In this document: positions 8,615-31,823 of the stretch, piece by piece
How positions within the stretch are numbered: the first letter of the stretch is position 1
How the letters are laid out: each line of letters opens with the position of its first letter
NCBI GenBank assembly: GCA_001781445.1
Contig: MFLB01000021.1
Location: 1-35,514, forward strand
Source: Candidatus Kaiserbacteria bacterium RIFCSPHIGHO2_01_FULL_58_22
GTDB lineage: Bacteria; Patescibacteriota; Minisyncoccia; Phycocordibacterales; UBA2100
Reading direction: 5' to 3'
Length of the DNA stretch: 35,514 nucleotides
The notes under the pieces: generated by a model
The model's input: only the letters and a program-made list of their open reading frames with translations
The model's database searches: none
Told to the model about the DNA's origin: nothing
Translations under genes and position numbers: made by a program

Positions 8615-9670
8615 ATGGCAAAGATAGATTTTGGCGGGACGGTTGAAGACGTTGTGACGCGCGACGAGTTTTCGCTTGAGAAAGCGCGCGAGATCTTGAA
8701 AGACGAGACTGTTGCAGTACTTGGCTACGGCGTACAGGGCCCAGCGCAAGCATTGAACATGCGAGACAACGGCATCAATGTCATCGTTGGCCAGCGCTCG
8801 GGAACTCCTTCGTACGAGAAGGCGGTGCAGGACGGGTGGGTGCCGGGAAAGACGCTCTTTTCTCCCGAAGAGGCCGCCGAGAAAGGTACCGTCATTCAAT
8901 TCCTCATATCCGATGCCGGGCAAATGAAGACGTGGCCGGACATCAAAAAGCACCTCACGAAAGGCAAAGCGCTCTATTTCTCACACGGATTCGGGCTCGT
9001 ATTCAACGATCAGACGGGCATCGTCCCGCCGAAAGATGTGGACGTCATCCTCGTCGCGCCCAAAGGCTCCGGCCGGAGCGTGCGCATCAACTTTCTGAAC
9101 GGGAGCGGCATCAATGCGAGCTACGCGGTAGACCAGGATGCGACCGGCCGCGCAAAAGAGCGTACGATTGCGCTTGGGATCGCGCTCGGCGCCGGCTACC
9201 TCTTCCCCACGACATTCAAGAACGAGGTCTACAGCGACCTTACGGGCGAGCGCGGAATTTTGATGGGCGCGCTCGCAGGCGTGATGGAAGCGCAGTACAA
9301 CGAGCTTCGCAAGCACGGCCACTCTCCGAGTGAAGCATTCAATGAGACCGTCGAGGAGCTGACGCAAAGCCTCATCCGCCTCGTCGGAGAGAATGGCATG
9401 GACTGGATGTACGCGAATTGCTCGACGACCGCCCAGCGCGGCGCGCTCGATTGGCGGCCAAAGTTCCGCAAAGCGGTGGAGCCGGTGTTCGAGGAACTCT
9501 ACAAGAGCGTCGCCTCGGGAAAAGAAACCGCCATAACCCTTAAAGCAAACAGCCAGCCGGATTACCGAGTGAAGCTTGAGGAAGAACTCAAAGAGATTCG
9601 AGAATCGGAAATGTGGAAAGCCGGCGCCGCCGTCCGCTCACTGCGCCCCGAGAATTGGAAGAAACAATAA
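8615..9670 (+). CDS. ilvC: Ketol-acid reductoisomerase
   Basis: From MAKIDFGGTVEDVV: AVLGYGVQGPAQALNMRDNG, LVAPKGSGRSVR, NEVYSDLTGERGILMGALAGVMEAQYNELRKHGHSPSEAFNETVEELTQSL. Confidence 0.96.
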   Translation: MAKIDFGGTVEDVVTRDEFSLEKAREILKDETVAVLGYGVQGPAQALNMRDNGINVIVGQRSGTPSYEKAVQDGWVPGKTLFSPEEAAEKGTVIQFLISDAGQMKTWPDIKKHLTKGKALYFSHGFGLVFNDQTGIVPPKDVDVILVAPKGSGRSVRINFLNGSGINASYAVDQDATGRAKERTIALGIALGAGYLFPTTFKNEVYSDLTGERGILMGALAGVMEAQYNELRKHGHSPSEAFNETVEELTQSLIRLVGENGMDWMYANCSTTAQRGALDWRPKFRKAVEPVFEELYKSVASGKETAITLKANSQPDYRVKLEEELKEIRESEMWKAGAAVRSLRPENWKKQ

Positions 9671-9688: not shown

Positions 9689-10039
9689 ATGGCGATACGC
9701 ATCATAAAAGATCGCATTTCAAGAAAAGAACTTCGGGAAATTGCAGATGAGCGGTTCGGCGATCTCGTCAAGGCCGCAATCGACATTCGACAGGAAATTA
9801 TCGCGCTCGGAGCCGAACTTCATGCTGATGCGCAAGTCGAACTTATCGAGAAGGAAGAATCAAGTACAGAAGACATTTGGGGAATTAACCTATATCCTGC
9901 AGAGAAAGACGATGCACTTGTGGAGTTCGATTCGATGATCAATCTCAAGCCTGCATTCGGCAACCGCACACGAGGAGTTGATGATGAGTCTACGAGGGGA
10001 AAAATCAGGGAGATTGTTAATCGAATCGTAACTGATTGA
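9689..10039 (+). CDS. DUF5674-like protein
   Basis: MAIRIIKDRISRKELREIADERFGDLVKAAIDIRQEIIALGAELHADAQVELIEKEESSTEDIWGINLYP. Confidence 0.7.
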   Translation: MAIRIIKDRISRKELREIADERFGDLVKAAIDIRQEIIALGAELHADAQVELIEKEESSTEDIWGINLYPAEKDDALVEFDSMINLKPAFGNRTRGVDDESTRGKIREIVNRIVTD

Positions 10040-10040
10040 T

Positions 10041-10355
10041 ATGGCTTTCCAACACGATCCGGCACGATGGCACACACTCTCGCTTGCCGAACAGTTGGGC
10101 AACATCGGAAGCGAGGTGCATCGCGCGCGGATGGCAGAACATGCAAATGAGAGCCGATTTATTGCCGCGCGCGATCGATCCCTCGAGCTTTTTGATCTCA
10201 CGCTCGCCGATCCGCGCTGGAAGGGCCGTTTGCGGGAAATCGCCCGCGCGCGAGAAGTCTTCTGCGACGCCGCCGAGGGCGGAAAACAATATCAAACGAC
10301 CATCGCAGAACTCGAACCGTACTTCGACCGATTCGCCATGGCTGTACGAAAATAG
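10041..10355 (+). CDS. Conserved hypothetical protein
   Basis: MAFQHDPARWHTLSLAEQLGNIGSEVHRARMAEHANE...FDLTLADPRWKGRLREIARAREVFCD; starts 1 nt after the DUF5674 stop. Confidence 0.7.
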   Translation: MAFQHDPARWHTLSLAEQLGNIGSEVHRARMAEHANESRFIAARDRSLELFDLTLADPRWKGRLREIARAREVFCDAAEGGKQYQTTIAELEPYFDRFAMAVRK

Positions 10356-10405
10356 CCGGCGCCGCAGTGCGCTCCATGCGCCCCGAGAACTGGAAGAAAT
10401 CCTAG
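10355..10405 (+). pseudogene. Duplicated 3' end of ilvC
   Basis: Encodes AGAAVRSMRPENWKKS* versus AGAAVRSLRPENWKKQ* at ilvC 9620-9670; about 42/51 nt identical by eye, frame and stop preserved. Confidence 0.85.
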
Positions 10406-10442: not shown

Positions 10443-11885
10443 GTGGCACAAAAGACGGAACCTTTCATATCGCTCAAGAAAGTCTCGATACGGGCGCATG
10501 GGCGCGTCCTTTTCGAGAACCTGCATTGGGAGATAAAGAACAACGAGCAATGGGCAGTAATAGGGTCTAATGGCTCGGGACGCTCCTCGCTCATGCGGGC
10601 GATTGCCGGTTCTCTTCCGCCTACCAAAGGAACAATTACACGTGTTTCGGACAATATAGAATACGTCTCTTTCGAGACACAAAAGAAACATTTGCCTTTC
10701 GAGACGTTCATCCAAGACCGCTGGAACGTCGGCCTTCGCGAGAACGGACTTACGGTCGCAGGCCTACTTCCCAAAGCGCCGCGCAAGCTCATCGCAGATT
10801 TCGGACTGAAAACGCTACTCGGTAGAAGCATTATTGAACTTTCGAATGGAGAGCGCCGCAAAGTGGAGATAGCGCGCGCGCTTCTGAAGGATCCTTCCCT
10901 TCTCATCTTGGACAATCCATACGAGGGGTTGGACGAGCAGTTCCGAAAGAAATTGACAAAAATATTGAACTCTCTCATGCGCTCGAAGATGCGCCTTATC
11001 ATCGTCGGGACGAGTAGAGATGAGATACCAACGGGTATCACGCATGTTTTCCTGATTGAAGAGGGTGGAAGAGTCACGCAATTCCCTAAAAAAAGTGTAC
11101 CAAGGTTAAACCTTGCCATTGATTCTCGAGGTGAAACATTGCCGAAAATCTCCAAGGGGAAAGGGGGTGTTGAAAAAAGAGCGTATAACGCTAGCTTACG
11201 CGGCCGCGTGAGCAAGAGTTATATGCCGATTGTGCAGATGAAAAAGGTGAACGTCTTATACGACGGACGAAAGATTCTTCGTAATGTCAATTGGACGGTA
11301 CGTGAATACGAACGCTGGGCGCTCTTTGGTCCTAATGGTGCGGGAAAGACGACGCTCCTCTCCCTTATCCTTGCGGACAATCCGCAGGCGTATGCCAACG
11401 ACATCACGCTCTTTGGCAAGAAAAGAGGCTCCGGCGAAAGTATTTGGGAAATCAAGCGTCAGATCGGATCTGTCTCGCCGGAGCTTCAGCTCTACTTCCC
11501 AACCTCTATGACCTGCCTTGATGTTGTGTGTTCGGGATGGTTCGACACCATTGGACTGTACCGAGAATGTACGGAGGATCAGCGCGAGATCGCACTCGCA
11601 TGGCTCCAACGCTTCGGAGTCGCTGAACACGCGGGAGAACCATTTGAAAATGTTTCAGAGGGTGAGCAGCGCCTTACGCTCCTTGCTCGCGCAATGGTGA
11701 AAAATCCTCGACTCCTCGTCTTGGATGAGCCGTGCCAGGGACTCGACCCCGAGCATCGCGATCGAGTCCTTGAGGCCGTTGATTCGATCGAGAAGGACTC
11801 CACGACTATTATTTATGTCACCCACCGCGCCGACGAGCTTCCGAAAAGTACTACCCACGTATTCAGATTAGAGAAAAAATCCTAA
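10443..11885 (+). CDS. Twin-ATPase ABC protein, ModF/PhrA-like
   Basis: Two NBDs; second has GPNGAGKTTLLSL, NDITLFGKKRGSGESIWEIKRQIG, NVSEGEQRLTLLARAMVKNPRLLVLDEPCQGLD as in ModF. GTG start. Confidence 0.9.
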   Translation: MAQKTEPFISLKKVSIRAHGRVLFENLHWEIKNNEQWAVIGSNGSGRSSLMRAIAGSLPPTKGTITRVSDNIEYVSFETQKKHLPFETFIQDRWNVGLRENGLTVAGLLPKAPRKLIADFGLKTLLGRSIIELSNGERRKVEIARALLKDPSLLILDNPYEGLDEQFRKKLTKILNSLMRSKMRLIIVGTSRDEIPTGITHVFLIEEGGRVTQFPKKSVPRLNLAIDSRGETLPKISKGKGGVEKRAYNASLRGRVSKSYMPIVQMKKVNVLYDGRKILRNVNWTVREYERWALFGPNGAGKTTLLSLILADNPQAYANDITLFGKKRGSGESIWEIKRQIGSVSPELQLYFPTSMTCLDVVCSGWFDTIGLYRECTEDQREIALAWLQRFGVAEHAGEPFENVSEGEQRLTLLARAMVKNPRLLVLDEPCQGLDPEHRDRVLEAVDSIEKDSTTIIYVTHRADELPKSTTHVFRLEKKS

Positions 11886-11917: not shown

Positions 11918-12283
11918 ATGAAAATCAAAGGCTTTGATGATACGATTGCTTGGTACGACAACGACGCCGAGCAATATGCGGCAGCGCTACAAGAAGCAGT
12001 TCCAGTTGCGGCAATAGAAAAGTTCCTCGAAGCGCTGCCTCTGAATCCCTCCATACTAGAAGCCGGCTGCGGGCCCGGCAGGGAATCCACCGTCTTTCAC
12101 CAGAAAGGCGCGAGAGTCGTGGGTGTTGATCTTTCAGAAGGATTGCTCGACATCGCGAGAAAAAATAATCCTGATGTTGAATACATCAAAGCAGACTTTC
12201 TTGAACTCCCGTTTCCCGGGAGCAAGTTTATTGGTGTGTGGGCTCACGCCTCGCTCGTTCACCTAGAGGGGAAATGGGGATAA
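11918..12283 (+). pseudogene. Truncated class I SAM-dependent methyltransferase
   Basis: Motif I ILEAGCGPGRESTVFHQKGARVVGVDLSEGLLDIARKN; frame breaks off after GVWAHASLVHLE where the RAYT-type element begins. Confidence 0.75.
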
Positions 12284-12490
12284 GTCCGATATTTCCTCGC
12301 ATTCTGTGGCCTAGTATTCTCATGCCACGCCTTCCGCGTGTCGCTGTCGGCGGCGTCCCATACTACGTCATCAACCGTGCGAACGGACGCGCGAGGATAT
12401 TTCACGATGAAAAAGAGTACCGGCATTTCGGGCCGAAGGGCTCATGATATTACACAATGCAAATGCCCAAAATAACGGACGTATCCCCAT
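12274..12490. mobile_element. Decayed RAYT (TnpA_REP-like) element or MITE, about 217 bp
   Basis: Inverted ends ATGGGGATAAGTCCGATATT (12274-12293) and AATAACGGACGTATCCCCAT (12471-12490), 18/20 complementary, flanking a RAYT N-terminal fragment. Confidence 0.65.
12322..12447 (+). pseudogene. N-terminal fragment of REP-associated tyrosine transposase
   Basis: MPRLPRVAVGGVPYYVINRANGRARIFHDEKEYRHF fits the conserved RAYT/Y1 N-terminus; about 41 aa only, HUH and catalytic Tyr regions absent. Confidence 0.7.
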
Positions 12491-12504
12491 TATCCCCATC
12501 GATC

Positions 12505-12590
12505 CCGAGACAACCACGATGATCTACGTCACCCACCGCGCCGACGAGCTTCCGAAAAGTATCACGAACGCACTCACGCTGAAAAAATAA
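12505..12590 (+). pseudogene. Duplicated 3' end of the ModF-like gene
   Basis: 34-nt exact repeat gtcacccaccgcgccgacgagcttccgaaaagta at 11817-11850 and 12528-12561; frame IYVTHRADELPKS continues to a stop (TLKK*). Confidence 0.9.
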
Positions 12591-23433: not shown

Positions 23434-23605
23434 GCGTCTATTGTGGCATGTCCTCGCGATGCCGCAATCGCGAATCCACACTCCATGAAGCTGGTCAGCG
23501 CGCGTCATATTGTCACATTGTTCCACAGGCTCCCCGGCGGTTTTTCCAAGTTGCAGTTCTTGTACATATGTACAAGAACTGTATTGAACAGATTTGCGCT
23601 TTCCC

Positions 23606-28549: not shown

Positions 28550-28937
28550 GGGGGTGACTGGCTTCGACAAAGAAATCGGTGTGTGTTTGCGCGTTGCGAG
28601 AGTGAACGACTCTCTCAAACCGTTCAAACACTTCAAGTGCGAACAAAGTAGCACGTGCAGTACTCTCGCCTATTCAAATGGCAGACCTGCAGCCCGCTTA
28701 CGCATACGTTGCCTAAGCGCCGTCCATCGAGCCGATGCTTGATCAAGCTCGACCGGGCGTAACACATTCAAGCACTGATGAACGGCGTCCACTGTTCATC
28801 TAAGACTTCGGAATCGGGGCATTGCGTTTCTGTTCATCTCATATGCAACGCTCTTAAACAAAATCAGATGTCCTACGCAATGTAGACACACTCACACACT
28901 TTTCCTTGGACTCGGGATCATTCCCCGACACCTCCAC
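28550..28937 (+). ncRNA. ssrA: tmRNA (one-piece)
   Basis: 5' GGGGGTGACTGGCTTCGAC and 3' CACCTCCA form the acceptor stem; tag ORF 28639-28716 ANKVARAVLSPIQMADLQPAYAYVA*; directly after smpB. CCA not encoded. Confidence 0.93.
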
Positions 28938-28978: not shown

Positions 28979-29167
28979 TCGCAGTGCAGGCACGCTTCGC
29001 CAGAAGCAGTGCTCGCACTGCGAAACTCCGAGCAGTGCGAGGGGTGAAGCAGTGTCCTGCGTAGCTTTATGCGAAGCAGGACTAAGCTGTCTTTAATCTT
29101 ATTAGCTACGAGCTACGCAGTGCAAGCACTTGTGCTTCATAGCTTCAGCGACGAAGTACTGCACTGC
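28977..29167. repeat. Palindrome-rich block with GCAGTGC/GCACTGC repeats
   Basis: GCAGTGC at 28981, 29006, 29032, 29117; GCACTGC at 29015, 29161; imperfect palindrome gtcctgcgtagctttatgcgaagcaggac near 29054-29082. Confidence 0.65.
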
Positions 29168-29199
29168 AACAAACGACCGCCTTTCGGCGGTCGTTTGTT
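29168..29199. terminator. Strong bidirectional hairpin terminator
   Basis: AACAAACGACCGCC tttc GGCGGTCGTTTGTT, 14-bp perfect stem. Confidence 0.85.
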
Positions 29200-29226: not shown

Positions 29227-29466
29227 ATGTACTTCGTCTACATTTTGCGAAGCCAGAAGGATAAGAGCCTCTATGTGGGTTCAACCGAGAACATCAAGCT
29301 ACGGCTTGCTGAACACAATAATGGCAAAGCAAAATATTCCAGTTCAAAACGTCCGTATGTATTGAAATGGTTCTGTGCGTTTCCGAACAAAACAATGGCT
29401 TTGAAATTCGAAAAATATCTGAAGCAGGGTTCTGGTTTCGCGTTCGCACGAAAACATCTCCTCTAA
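29227..29466 (+). CDS. GIY-YIG nuclease family protein
   Basis: MYFVYILRSQKDKSLYVGSTENIKLRLAEHNNGKAKYSSSKRPYVLKWFCAF. Confidence 0.92.
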   Translation: MYFVYILRSQKDKSLYVGSTENIKLRLAEHNNGKAKYSSSKRPYVLKWFCAFPNKTMALKFEKYLKQGSGFAFARKHLL

Positions 29467-29553: not shown

Positions 29554-29602
29554 CCCGTACGGGAGTCTTTTGCTTCGCCGTGAGAAGCTCTTACTGCGCC
29601 GG
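29554..29602 (-). repeat. Duplicated 3' end of the small Cys-rich gene at 30910-31056
   Basis: 49-nt exact repeat cccgtacgggagtcttttgcttcgccgtgagaagctcttactgcgccgg, identical to 30873-30921. Confidence 0.9.
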
Positions 29603-29616
29603 AGCGTCCTTATTTA

Positions 29617-29671
29617 TTCTACTTCGCCGAATACCCCGTAGCTTGCTGCGGGGATGAAGGCGTGAGTAGAA
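29617..29671. repeat. REP-like nested hairpin
   Basis: TTCTACT/AGTAGAA, CGCC/GGCG and CCCCGTAGC tt GCTGCGGGG nested arms; related hairpin cctcgcagcttgctgcgagg near 29731-29750. Confidence 0.7.
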
Positions 29672-29892
29672 CCCTTCGTAGCTTTAGCGAAGTAGGGTTG
29701 GCGGCTACGAAGAATTCCGCAGATACCTCGCAGCTTGCTGCGAGGAGCTTCATTTTCTTTTTTTGGAAGGTTTCGCCCTTTTATTGAAAGCGAGGGCCAG
29801 TTTAATCCAAAAGCCTAAATCGGCCTTGCCGCCAGTTCCTTCAGGGCTAACGAAGACGCATCTGCACGTTGCTCGCTGTAGGCGATAGCGTT

Positions 29893-30294
29893 TCAAGAAA
29901 AGACGTAAGCGACAATGATACCTGCGATACTGAAGTGAAGTACGCCGTAGGCAAGCTCTAAGACAGCATATTGCCACACCGGCTCGATATTGAATTTCGC
30001 CGGCACGACGAACGCGCCATAGACAATGCTGTACGAACCCAAAAGAAGACCGAAGAAAAGGCCCCCCGTGATTGGATTCGTACCCGAATAGAAGAGCGCG
30101 AAGAGCGTCGAGAGCGCAAGTGCCTGAATGACAATTGCGAGGAACCCGAGCGGGATAATTGGTTTTTCCCGCGCTGTTTCTCCAGTGAGCGTCTCGTATT
30201 GCTTCTTAAAGATGCCGAGATTCCACACAAAAGCGAAGGCAAAATTGAAGACGATGTACGCGACTGTAGCGATAATGAATGTTGTGGTAATCAT
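29893..30294 (-). CDS. Four-TM membrane protein, possibly DUF1761-like
   Basis: MITTTFIIATVAYIVFNFAFAFVWNLGIFKKQYETLTG...PIIPLGFLAIVIQALALSTLFALFY. Confidence 0.65.
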   Translation of the reverse strand: MITTTFIIATVAYIVFNFAFAFVWNLGIFKKQYETLTGETAREKPIIPLGFLAIVIQALALSTLFALFYSGTNPITGGLFFGLLLGSYSIVYGAFVVPAKFNIEPVWQYAVLELAYGVLHFSIAGIIVAYVFS

Positions 30295-30315
30295 ATTTGT
30301 TCTTAGTCGATTTAG

Positions 30316-30501
30316 TTAGGCCGCATCAAACCTTGCCTTGTTGTCGACCACCCACTTCTGTTGGTCTTCCTTGGTTTTGCTTGGGTCATTCATCACATCA
30401 GCGTGAGCTTTCATATAGTGAGGCATGAGAGCCTTCATCCACGCTTCAAACGTTTCGCCTTTTGCTGTTACTTCGCACACATCACATTTTAGAGTTTTCA
30501 T
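30316..30501 (-). CDS. Small DUF1059-like protein
   Basis: MKTLKCDVCEVTAKGETFEAWMKALMPHYMKAHADVMNDPSKTKEDQQKWVVDNKARFDAA. Confidence 0.55.
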   Translation of the reverse strand: MKTLKCDVCEVTAKGETFEAWMKALMPHYMKAHADVMNDPSKTKEDQQKWVVDNKARFDAA

Positions 30502-30534
30502 AGTTCTTAATAATTCTTCGTTAATCTAGAACCA

Positions 30535-30810
30535 TTACATCGTCGCCGCTTCGTAGACCCGCATGCTCGTGATCATGGGACAATCCTGCGCGATTTTAAG
30601 CGCCTCGTCCATACTTTCAGCTTTTATAATCGAGTAGCCTGTAATTGCGTTTTTATCGTGCGGCAAATCTTTTACTTCTGCTGATGTCACTTCTTTTCCA
30701 GGCATAAAGGGATTGCCACTGTCGGTAAATTTATCCCCGTACTTGGTAAACCAACCCATCCATGCCCTTTTTATCTCTTCTGTCGTCAACCTTTTTGCAA
30801 GTGCATGCAT
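30535..30810 (-). CDS. YciI-like protein
   Basis: WMGWFTKYGDKFTDSGNPFMPGKEVTS...NAITGYSIIKAESMDEALKIAQDCPMI. Confidence 0.65.
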   Translation of the reverse strand: MHALAKRLTTEEIKRAWMGWFTKYGDKFTDSGNPFMPGKEVTSAEVKDLPHDKNAITGYSIIKAESMDEALKIAQDCPMITSMRVYEAATM

Positions 30811-30862
30811 CTTTGCAGGTTCTGACTTCTTGCATATATCTTATCTGGACAGCAACAACTTC

Positions 30863-30892
30863 GCAAAAGACTCCCGTACGGGAGTCTTTTGC
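30863..30892. terminator. 30-nt perfect palindrome, bidirectional terminator
   Basis: GCAAAAGACTCCCGTACGGGAGTCTTTTGC. Confidence 0.75.
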
Positions 30893-30909
30893 TTCGCCGT
30901 GAGAAGCTC

Positions 30910-31056
30910 TTACTGCGCCGGGGCGGCGGGAGCTTCGGGAGCCGGTCCCGCCGGGGCGGAAGAAGCGGGGGGACATTTTTTGCCGCACGCGGTACACAGC
31001 GCGTCGCCCGGTTGGCACGAGCTCCCCGCGCCACAGCCACATTCGTCTTCATTCAT
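30910..31056 (-). CDS. Small Cys-rich protein (48 aa)
   Basis: MNEDECGCGAGSSCQPGDALCTACGKKCPPASSAPAGPAPEAPAAPAQ*, six Cys clustered (CxC, CxxC), Ala/Pro tail. Confidence 0.6.
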   Translation of the reverse strand: MNEDECGCGAGSSCQPGDALCTACGKKCPPASSAPAGPAPEAPAAPAQ

Positions 31057-31139: not shown

Positions 31140-31823
31140 CTACTGTACGCGCGGGAACGAGATTTTCTGCGGCCCCGCCGCATAGGGGCCGACCTGGTAG
31201 ACCTGGAAGACGAACGTAACGTTGTCGGCGCCGACGAGGAAGGTGCCGTAGTTCTCGATCGTCGGGTCCGCGCCTTCGGGCGCGATGACGTCGCTCCCGA
31301 GCTTCTGCCCGAGCTCCGCTTTCGCTTTCGCCGCGGTCTCTTGTAGCGTAAGGCCCGTGAGCGCGAGCGCGTCGTCGAGCGTCAGTTTCCTGCCAGAGCT
31401 TTTCTCGAAATTCAGGCCGGTCACGAACGAGATGCCGTGCGCGCCGCCCAGATAGGTCGAGACGACGAGTTCGACGCTCACGATGTCCGCGCCGACATAT
31501 GCGAAATCGAACGCGCTCGCGAACTCATAGCGCGGAACGGCAGAGCCGGGAGGCGGACCCTCGGCGGCGTCCTTCTTGAACTGCGCGATAGCCTCCTCGA
31601 CGACCGCCTTGATCTCTGCGTCGATGGCGGGAATCCCGAACTGCGGATATCTCGCCTCGATCGCGTACATTTCCGCTATCTCGCGCTCCGTCGCGGTCGT
31701 TATCTCGGCTGTCTGGGGCGCCGCTTCGATCTTCGCATCGCCCATCCGCCCCGCACTCCTGAAAAGAAAATATCCTGCTCCAAGCGCCAAGAGAATTGCC
31801 GCGAACGCAAGAGCGCGGTTCAT
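31140..31823 (-). CDS. Membrane-anchored DUF3298-like protein (RsiV-type C-terminal domain)
   Basis: N-terminal TM, ARYPQFGIPAIDAEIKAVVEEAIAQFKKD, STYLGGAHGISFVTGLNFEKSSGRKLTLDD, VGPYAAGPQKISFP. Confidence 0.82.
   Translation of the reverse strand: MNRALAFAAILLALGAGYFLFRSAGRMGDAKIEAAPQTAEITTATEREIAEMYAIEARYPQFGIPAIDAEIKAVVEEAIAQFKKDAAEGPPPGSAVPRYEFASAFDFAYVGADIVSVELVVSTYLGGAHGISFVTGLNFEKSSGRKLTLDDALALTGLTLQETAAKAKAELGQKLGSDVIAPEGADPTIENYGTFLVGADNVTFVFQVYQVGPYAAGPQKISFPRVQ

Follow-up and report, generated by a model that had tools for sequence, protein, structure and literature searches.

The window, the whole stretch of 35,514 nt analysed here, carries on its minus strand a small, intact Cys-rich gene (30910..31056, 48 aa) whose C-terminus (...PAPEAPAAPAQ*) and stop codon lie inside one copy of a direct repeat. 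Self-comparison of the window recovered this repeat much as the earlier note had described it, as an exact match of 49 nt that includes the last codons PAQ* of the gene (29554-29602 and 30873-30921; about 2e-21 such matches expected by chance in 35.5 kb), and extended it to 53 nt with one mismatch (98%; 29554-29606 and 30873-30925). The proximal copy (30873..30925, minus strand) comprises the final codons, the stop, the 3' flank and most of a terminator palindrome, of which the distal copy (29554..29606, minus strand) retains a part. The complete element, a perfect 30-nt palindrome resembling a terminator hairpin and taken from the list of inverted repeats (30863..30892), is present at the host-gene copy only, and identity between the two copies ends 5 nt beyond its centre in the direction of the gene (immediately after GCAAAAGACTCCCGTACGGG), so that the junction indeed falls at or near the palindrome centre, as had been proposed. 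The 49-mer occurs twice in the whole 808 kb genome (48 contigs) and nowhere else at up to 3 mismatches, which rules out its being a dispersed multicopy repeat. Short palindromic repeats of the CTTCGTAGCTTTAGCGAAGTAGGG type, related to one another, flank the distal copy (29060-29180 and 29630-29730), and a perfect 28-nt palindrome (CAGTTCTTGTACATATGTACAAGAACTG) lies near tRNA-Ile at 23554-23581; contigs C39, C46, C48, C23 and C27 also carry long palindromes like the latter where genes end.

Between the two tail copies lies an insert of 1266 nt (29607..30872), with a GC content of 0.47 against 0.69 in the host gene, which holds three ORFs of 91, 61 and 133 aa, all on the minus strand. The three small same-strand genes of the earlier note therefore stand, whereas their names fared unevenly. 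The 91-aa product (30535..30810) is YciI-like by a sub-threshold match to PF03795 (E 1.1e-4, 23.1 bits for a 24-bit cut-off), and the labels DUF1059-like for the 61-aa gene (30316..30501) and DUF1761-like for the 133-aa gene (29893..30294), which encodes a membrane-like protein, were unconfirmed, as neither protein had a match in the Pfam scan. The 61-aa protein has 28 relatives, mostly in Patescibacteria MAGs, and the 133-aa gene is rare in the order (3 of 297 genomes, counting this one). Pfam recognised neither a toxin-antitoxin pair nor restriction-modification genes in this insert, and no recombinase gene was found among its listed and scanned ORFs.

On either side, the locus is framed by genes that serve as syntenic anchors, a single-domain GIY-YIG gene (29227..29466, plus strand; PF01541) and a DUF3298/PdaC-domain gene (31140..31823, minus strand; identified by Pfam and by its relatives). 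A tmRNA is encoded at 28550-28937, between SmpB and the GIY-YIG gene. In the genome G051 (L093), the order SmpB, GIY-YIG, Cys-rich gene and DUF3298 is that of the window, in the same orientation and with the GIY-YIG gene in the same position, and both the insert and the repeat are missing. A Patescibacteria MAG contig (L253) that has no Cys-rich gene carries the three cargo genes in the same order as well. Together with this empty site, the cargo order found elsewhere and the scarcity of the 133-aa gene indicate that the insert was acquired, in agreement with the original proposal of a cassette placed between a gene and its duplicated tail. The contig L253 itself was rejected as the donor, since it lacks the Cys-rich gene and matches in coding sequence only. 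The note had read the exact identity as a sign of a recent event or of ongoing gene conversion; the second of these was not borne out, as we found nothing that speaks for gene conversion or continuing excision. Homologues of the Cys-rich gene itself (E<=1.5e-7) are present in G021, G015, G051, G030, G029 and G026.

The earlier note had called this the third cassette of its kind, and the tails of ilvC and of an ABC-ATPase gene are likewise duplicated in the window. The tail of ilvC (KARI by Pfam; 8615..9670, plus strand; tail 9619-9664) recurs at 10354..10399 on the same strand with 89% identity, beyond a DUF5674 gene (9689-10039) and a gene of 104 aa (10041-10355). That of the ABC-ATPase (Pfam ABC_tran; 10443..11885, plus strand; tail 11787-11880) recurs at 12498..12588, also on the plus strand, with 74% identity, beyond a short methyltransferase ORF (11918-12283) and a possible transposase fragment (12322-12447); judged by eye only, the latter ORF (MPRLPRVAVGGVPYYVINRANGRARIF...) is like the start of a REP-associated (Y1) transposase. 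In G052 and G053, ilvC adjoins the ABC gene and the site is empty. In G017, the order is ilvC-x1-x2-ABC with no tail fragment, an arrangement like that expected of a donor, which could also be a tail-duplicated form that has lost its fragment. The end of x2 in G017 reads AAAATAGCCG and the ilvC junction of the present genome AAAATAGCCGGCG; the five bases AGCCG are common to both, a possible microhomology at the illegitimate junction in this single case.

We then compared gene ends across 774 kb of the genome of about 0.8 Mb, fetched as stretches, in which a simple codon model called 748 genes. A 160-nt window at the 3' end of each gene was matched against the 4 kb downstream, a score of at least 35 being counted as strong, with gene starts, gene middles and the upstream side as controls. 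Strong downstream tail copies were found for 14 genes, about 11 of them genuine tails on inspection, the rest being copies of a TatD start, a pilin-region repeat and AAA-ATPase paralogues, none of which are tail cassettes. The controls gave 3 strong matches for middles downstream, 2 for middles upstream, 1 for starts downstream and 4 for starts upstream, an excess of downstream tails over the start and middle controls with a Fisher p of 3e-5; the 3 strong matches of tails upstream are in part mirror images of the same events. Two cassettes lie beyond the 14 strong matches, one on C33 (score 28) and that of the Cys-rich gene, which is too short for the test. The locus is thus one of a series of a dozen or more tail cassettes in a 0.8 Mb genome. 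Repeats measure 46-188 nt at the sister sites and 53 nt at the Cys-rich locus, and the hosts are mostly housekeeping genes (fusA, prfB, argS, purF, purT, ilvC, rnc; KARI and ABC_tran were identified by Pfam, the other names come from sequence and gene order). Empty sites are seen again for prfB, which is spaced about 100 nt from ftsE in G036, and for rnc, about 350 nt from smc in G030, and at ilvC, prfB and rnc the resident neighbour follows the distal tail copy. Two other kinds of repeat were encountered in the scan: two upstream copies of the start of a TatD-like gene, with small inserts, which mirror the tail duplications at the 5' side (L053 15894-17056; G000 C22), and intergenic direct repeats of the CTACTAACTACTTTCTACTAACTACT type (L036 2821-5071, L053 288-655, L079).

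The cargo of the series consists mostly of toxin-antitoxin genes. Pfam recognised a toxin of the PIN, HicA, ParE, PemK/MazF, HigB or AbiEii type in 10 of 14 inserts, a proportion within the inserts and not relative to the toxin-antitoxin share of the genome. These are PIN_3 on C1 and C33, a Phd-like gene with PIN on C19, HicB/HicA on C13, Phd and ParE followed by PemK on C8, AbiEii on C34, HigB with an HTH gene on C22, ParE on C12 and PemK on C3; toxin and antitoxin genes are adjacent in sister cassettes such as HicB/HicA, Phd/ParE and HigB with its HTH gene. The four inserts with no toxin are those of ilvC (DUF5674), rnc (PaaX_M), the ABC-ATPase (methyltransferase) and the Cys-rich locus. Tail cassettes hold 4 of the 9 PemK and ParE matches of this genome. 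Behind fusA they form an array (L039 8782-11363; G000 C8) of Phd/ParE, a tail copy, RHH/PemK and a second tail copy, continuing into a third PemK locus that reaches the contig end; the two EF-G tail copies are 97% alike. Among the inserts of the series, whose ORFs were listed and scanned with Pfam, we recognised no recombinase and saw no shared end sequence.

Tail copies are also present in other genomes. Flanking direct repeats were found at 8 of 52 PemK/ParE loci of the genus, this genome excluded, and at none of 51 control loci (Fisher p 0.003), and clear gene tails account for five of the eight (L187, L193, L208, L179, L168; p 0.03). Six genomes (G000, G034, G012, G051, G017, G028) carry a further EF-G tail downstream of fusA or close to it, next to a ParE match in G051 and G017, and in G034 a gene that is Fic-like by eye lies between fusA and the tail. 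Across the order, 6 of 25 PemK loci were flanked by repeats, most of which resemble terminator, promoter or other intergenic repeats, and these were left out of the tail count. Partial scans of G036 and G030 (400 and 395 kb) recovered no gene-tail copies other than paralogues and internal repeats, so that the rate of tail copying depends on the lineage.

The way in which the copies differ bears on their origin. Over 16 tail pairs, 35, 31 and 118 differences fall at the first, second and third codon positions, with about 349 sites each, and the changed codons comprise 85 synonymous and 60 non-synonymous cases. The excess at third positions is significant against an even spread (p 1e-17) and against one copy decaying freely (p 8e-5), and hence the tails look like orthologues from two genomes. 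The codon test is uninformative at the Cys-rich locus, where a single base distinguishes the copies and most of the repeat is noncoding. We also considered EF-G relatedness as a test of polarity, and identities of body and tail proved weakly correlated in most genomes and decide nothing.

We consider the most probable explanation, at roughly 60%, to be that a horizontally acquired cassette was inserted at the host gene's 3' end by one-sided homologous recombination. The incoming foreign DNA would bear its own version of that gene's tail, with new genes behind it, and would pair with the resident gene; a crossover would give the host gene the incoming tail and leave it intact. Illegitimate joining would then fix the non-homologous end within or next to the resident tail, and this tail would survive as a remnant distal to the insert, continuous with its former downstream neighbour. 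Such insertions would be tolerated because the host gene retains a complete 3' end. DNA uptake would be the probable route; the genome has comEC, and comEC-dependent natural transformation has been shown in a Saccharibacterium (PMC10633639). The predominance of toxin-antitoxin cargo may reflect the harm that loss of a cassette by recombination between its repeats would do to the cell. By its architecture, the cassette of the Cys-rich locus is provisionally placed with these insertions. Its anchor in the host gene tail is seen at one end and its donor molecule was not found, and the full terminator on the proximal copy counts against one-sided insertion, in that a displaced resident tail might keep its own.

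A long target duplication, in which the cassette enters through widely staggered breaks that copy the resident tail on both sides and divergence is later decay, is in our judgement unlikely, if far from negligible. It would account for direct repeats of variable length (46-188 nt; 53 nt) with uninterrupted relatives (G051; G052/G053; G036; G030), near-identical pairs do exist (98% at the Cys-rich locus, 99% on C1, 95% on C3, and the two EF-G fragments of this genome at 97%), and restriction-modification systems insert with variable duplications on the order of 100 bp (PMC3874152; PMC3031569). It explains the near-identical pairs equally as well as one-sided import, and the Cys-rich locus alone cannot separate the two; the pairs there and on C1 and C3 are too alike to be informative on whether both copies stem from one resident sequence. 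However, 118 of the 184 differences fall at third codon positions, above the free decay of a single copy (p 8e-5), and the cargo is, by Pfam, mostly toxin-antitoxin rather than restriction-modification.

The remaining explanations have less in their favour. Elements that integrate into gene 3' ends leave the host gene intact and direct repeats on both sides, which is the arrangement seen here, and a circular element with a short attachment site in a gene tail could have entered by a recombinase or by RecA (site-specific or Campbell integration). We regard this as improbable, as no recombinase and no common end sequence were recognised in the inserts, and every site has a different repeat, at a different distance from the stop codon, so that the repeat is not a fixed attachment site. 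The genome derives from a metagenome, it is in 48 contigs and 49 nt is short relative to reads, but an artefact of assembly or strain mixing is very hard to reconcile with copies that differ by 10-25% in most pairs, with cargo genes that occupy the corresponding site of another species (G017) and with tail copies in independently assembled genomes. Two tails would also result if a tail and the genes behind it had been duplicated in tandem and one set then lost; this is just as implausible, given low-GC foreign cargo missing from the empty sites of relatives, and distal copies followed by the resident neighbour rather than by a second copy of the insert.

The proposed one-sided insertion has partial counterparts among known systems. 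The long target duplications made by inserting restriction-modification systems (Nobusato 2000; Furuta 2010, cited in PMC3874152 and PMC3031569) likewise concern addictive units that show no mobile element and are flanked by target direct repeats of about 100 bp. The present series differs in that most of its cargo is toxin-antitoxin, insertion is at gene 3' ends and the copies have usually diverged as orthologous coding sequence. In homology-facilitated illegitimate recombination during natural transformation (de Vries and Wackernagel 2002; Prudhomme 2002; Meier and Wackernagel 2003, cited in PMC3784515), homology also anchors one end and the other is joined illegitimately; in contrast, the second end here would lie in or beside the resident tail and produce a duplication, and the process is known from its sequence outcome alone. 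Our literature search returned no paper joining toxin-antitoxin systems with homology-facilitated illegitimate recombination, and few on toxin-antitoxin systems with long target duplication, of which those examined concern or cite restriction-modification.

Displaced tails have been attributed to homology-facilitated illegitimate recombination in a proposal for the T6SS effector-immunity arrays of Vibrio cholerae, where a module anchored in a shared upstream region similarly pushes the old 3' part downstream and leaves orphan remnants (PMC5361080). Unlike in those clusters, the hosts here are many unrelated housekeeping genes and the cargo is toxin-antitoxin. In fungal mitochondrial mobile ORFs such as that of Allomyces atp6, the insert encodes a homing endonuclease and brings a substitute C-terminus that displaces the resident one. 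The supply of a new tail and the displacement of the old one are common to both, whereas no endonuclease was recognised here within the inserts; GIY-YIG genes lie outside the repeats, the single-domain gene just outside that of the Cys-rich locus, and homing-endonuclease insertion was rejected.

These results bear on the open question of how small toxin-antitoxin pairs in chromosomes spread when no mobile element is visible, and they suggest that addictive genes settle behind essential ones by carrying a replacement gene end. We put forward, tentatively and at somewhat less than even odds, that toxin-antitoxin modules in these bacteria spread with neither transposase nor integrase by riding the 3' ends of essential genes, with incoming DNA replacing the tail, leaving the old one behind and stacking behind the same gene (e.g. 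fusA) in separate lineages, and that bacteria with small genomes may generally gain addictive genes by this route, with no transposon involved. The duplicated gene tail would then be a recognisable scar from which the number, age and polarity of such insertions could be read in any genome, and it would connect addiction modules with natural transformation in bacteria with reduced genomes.
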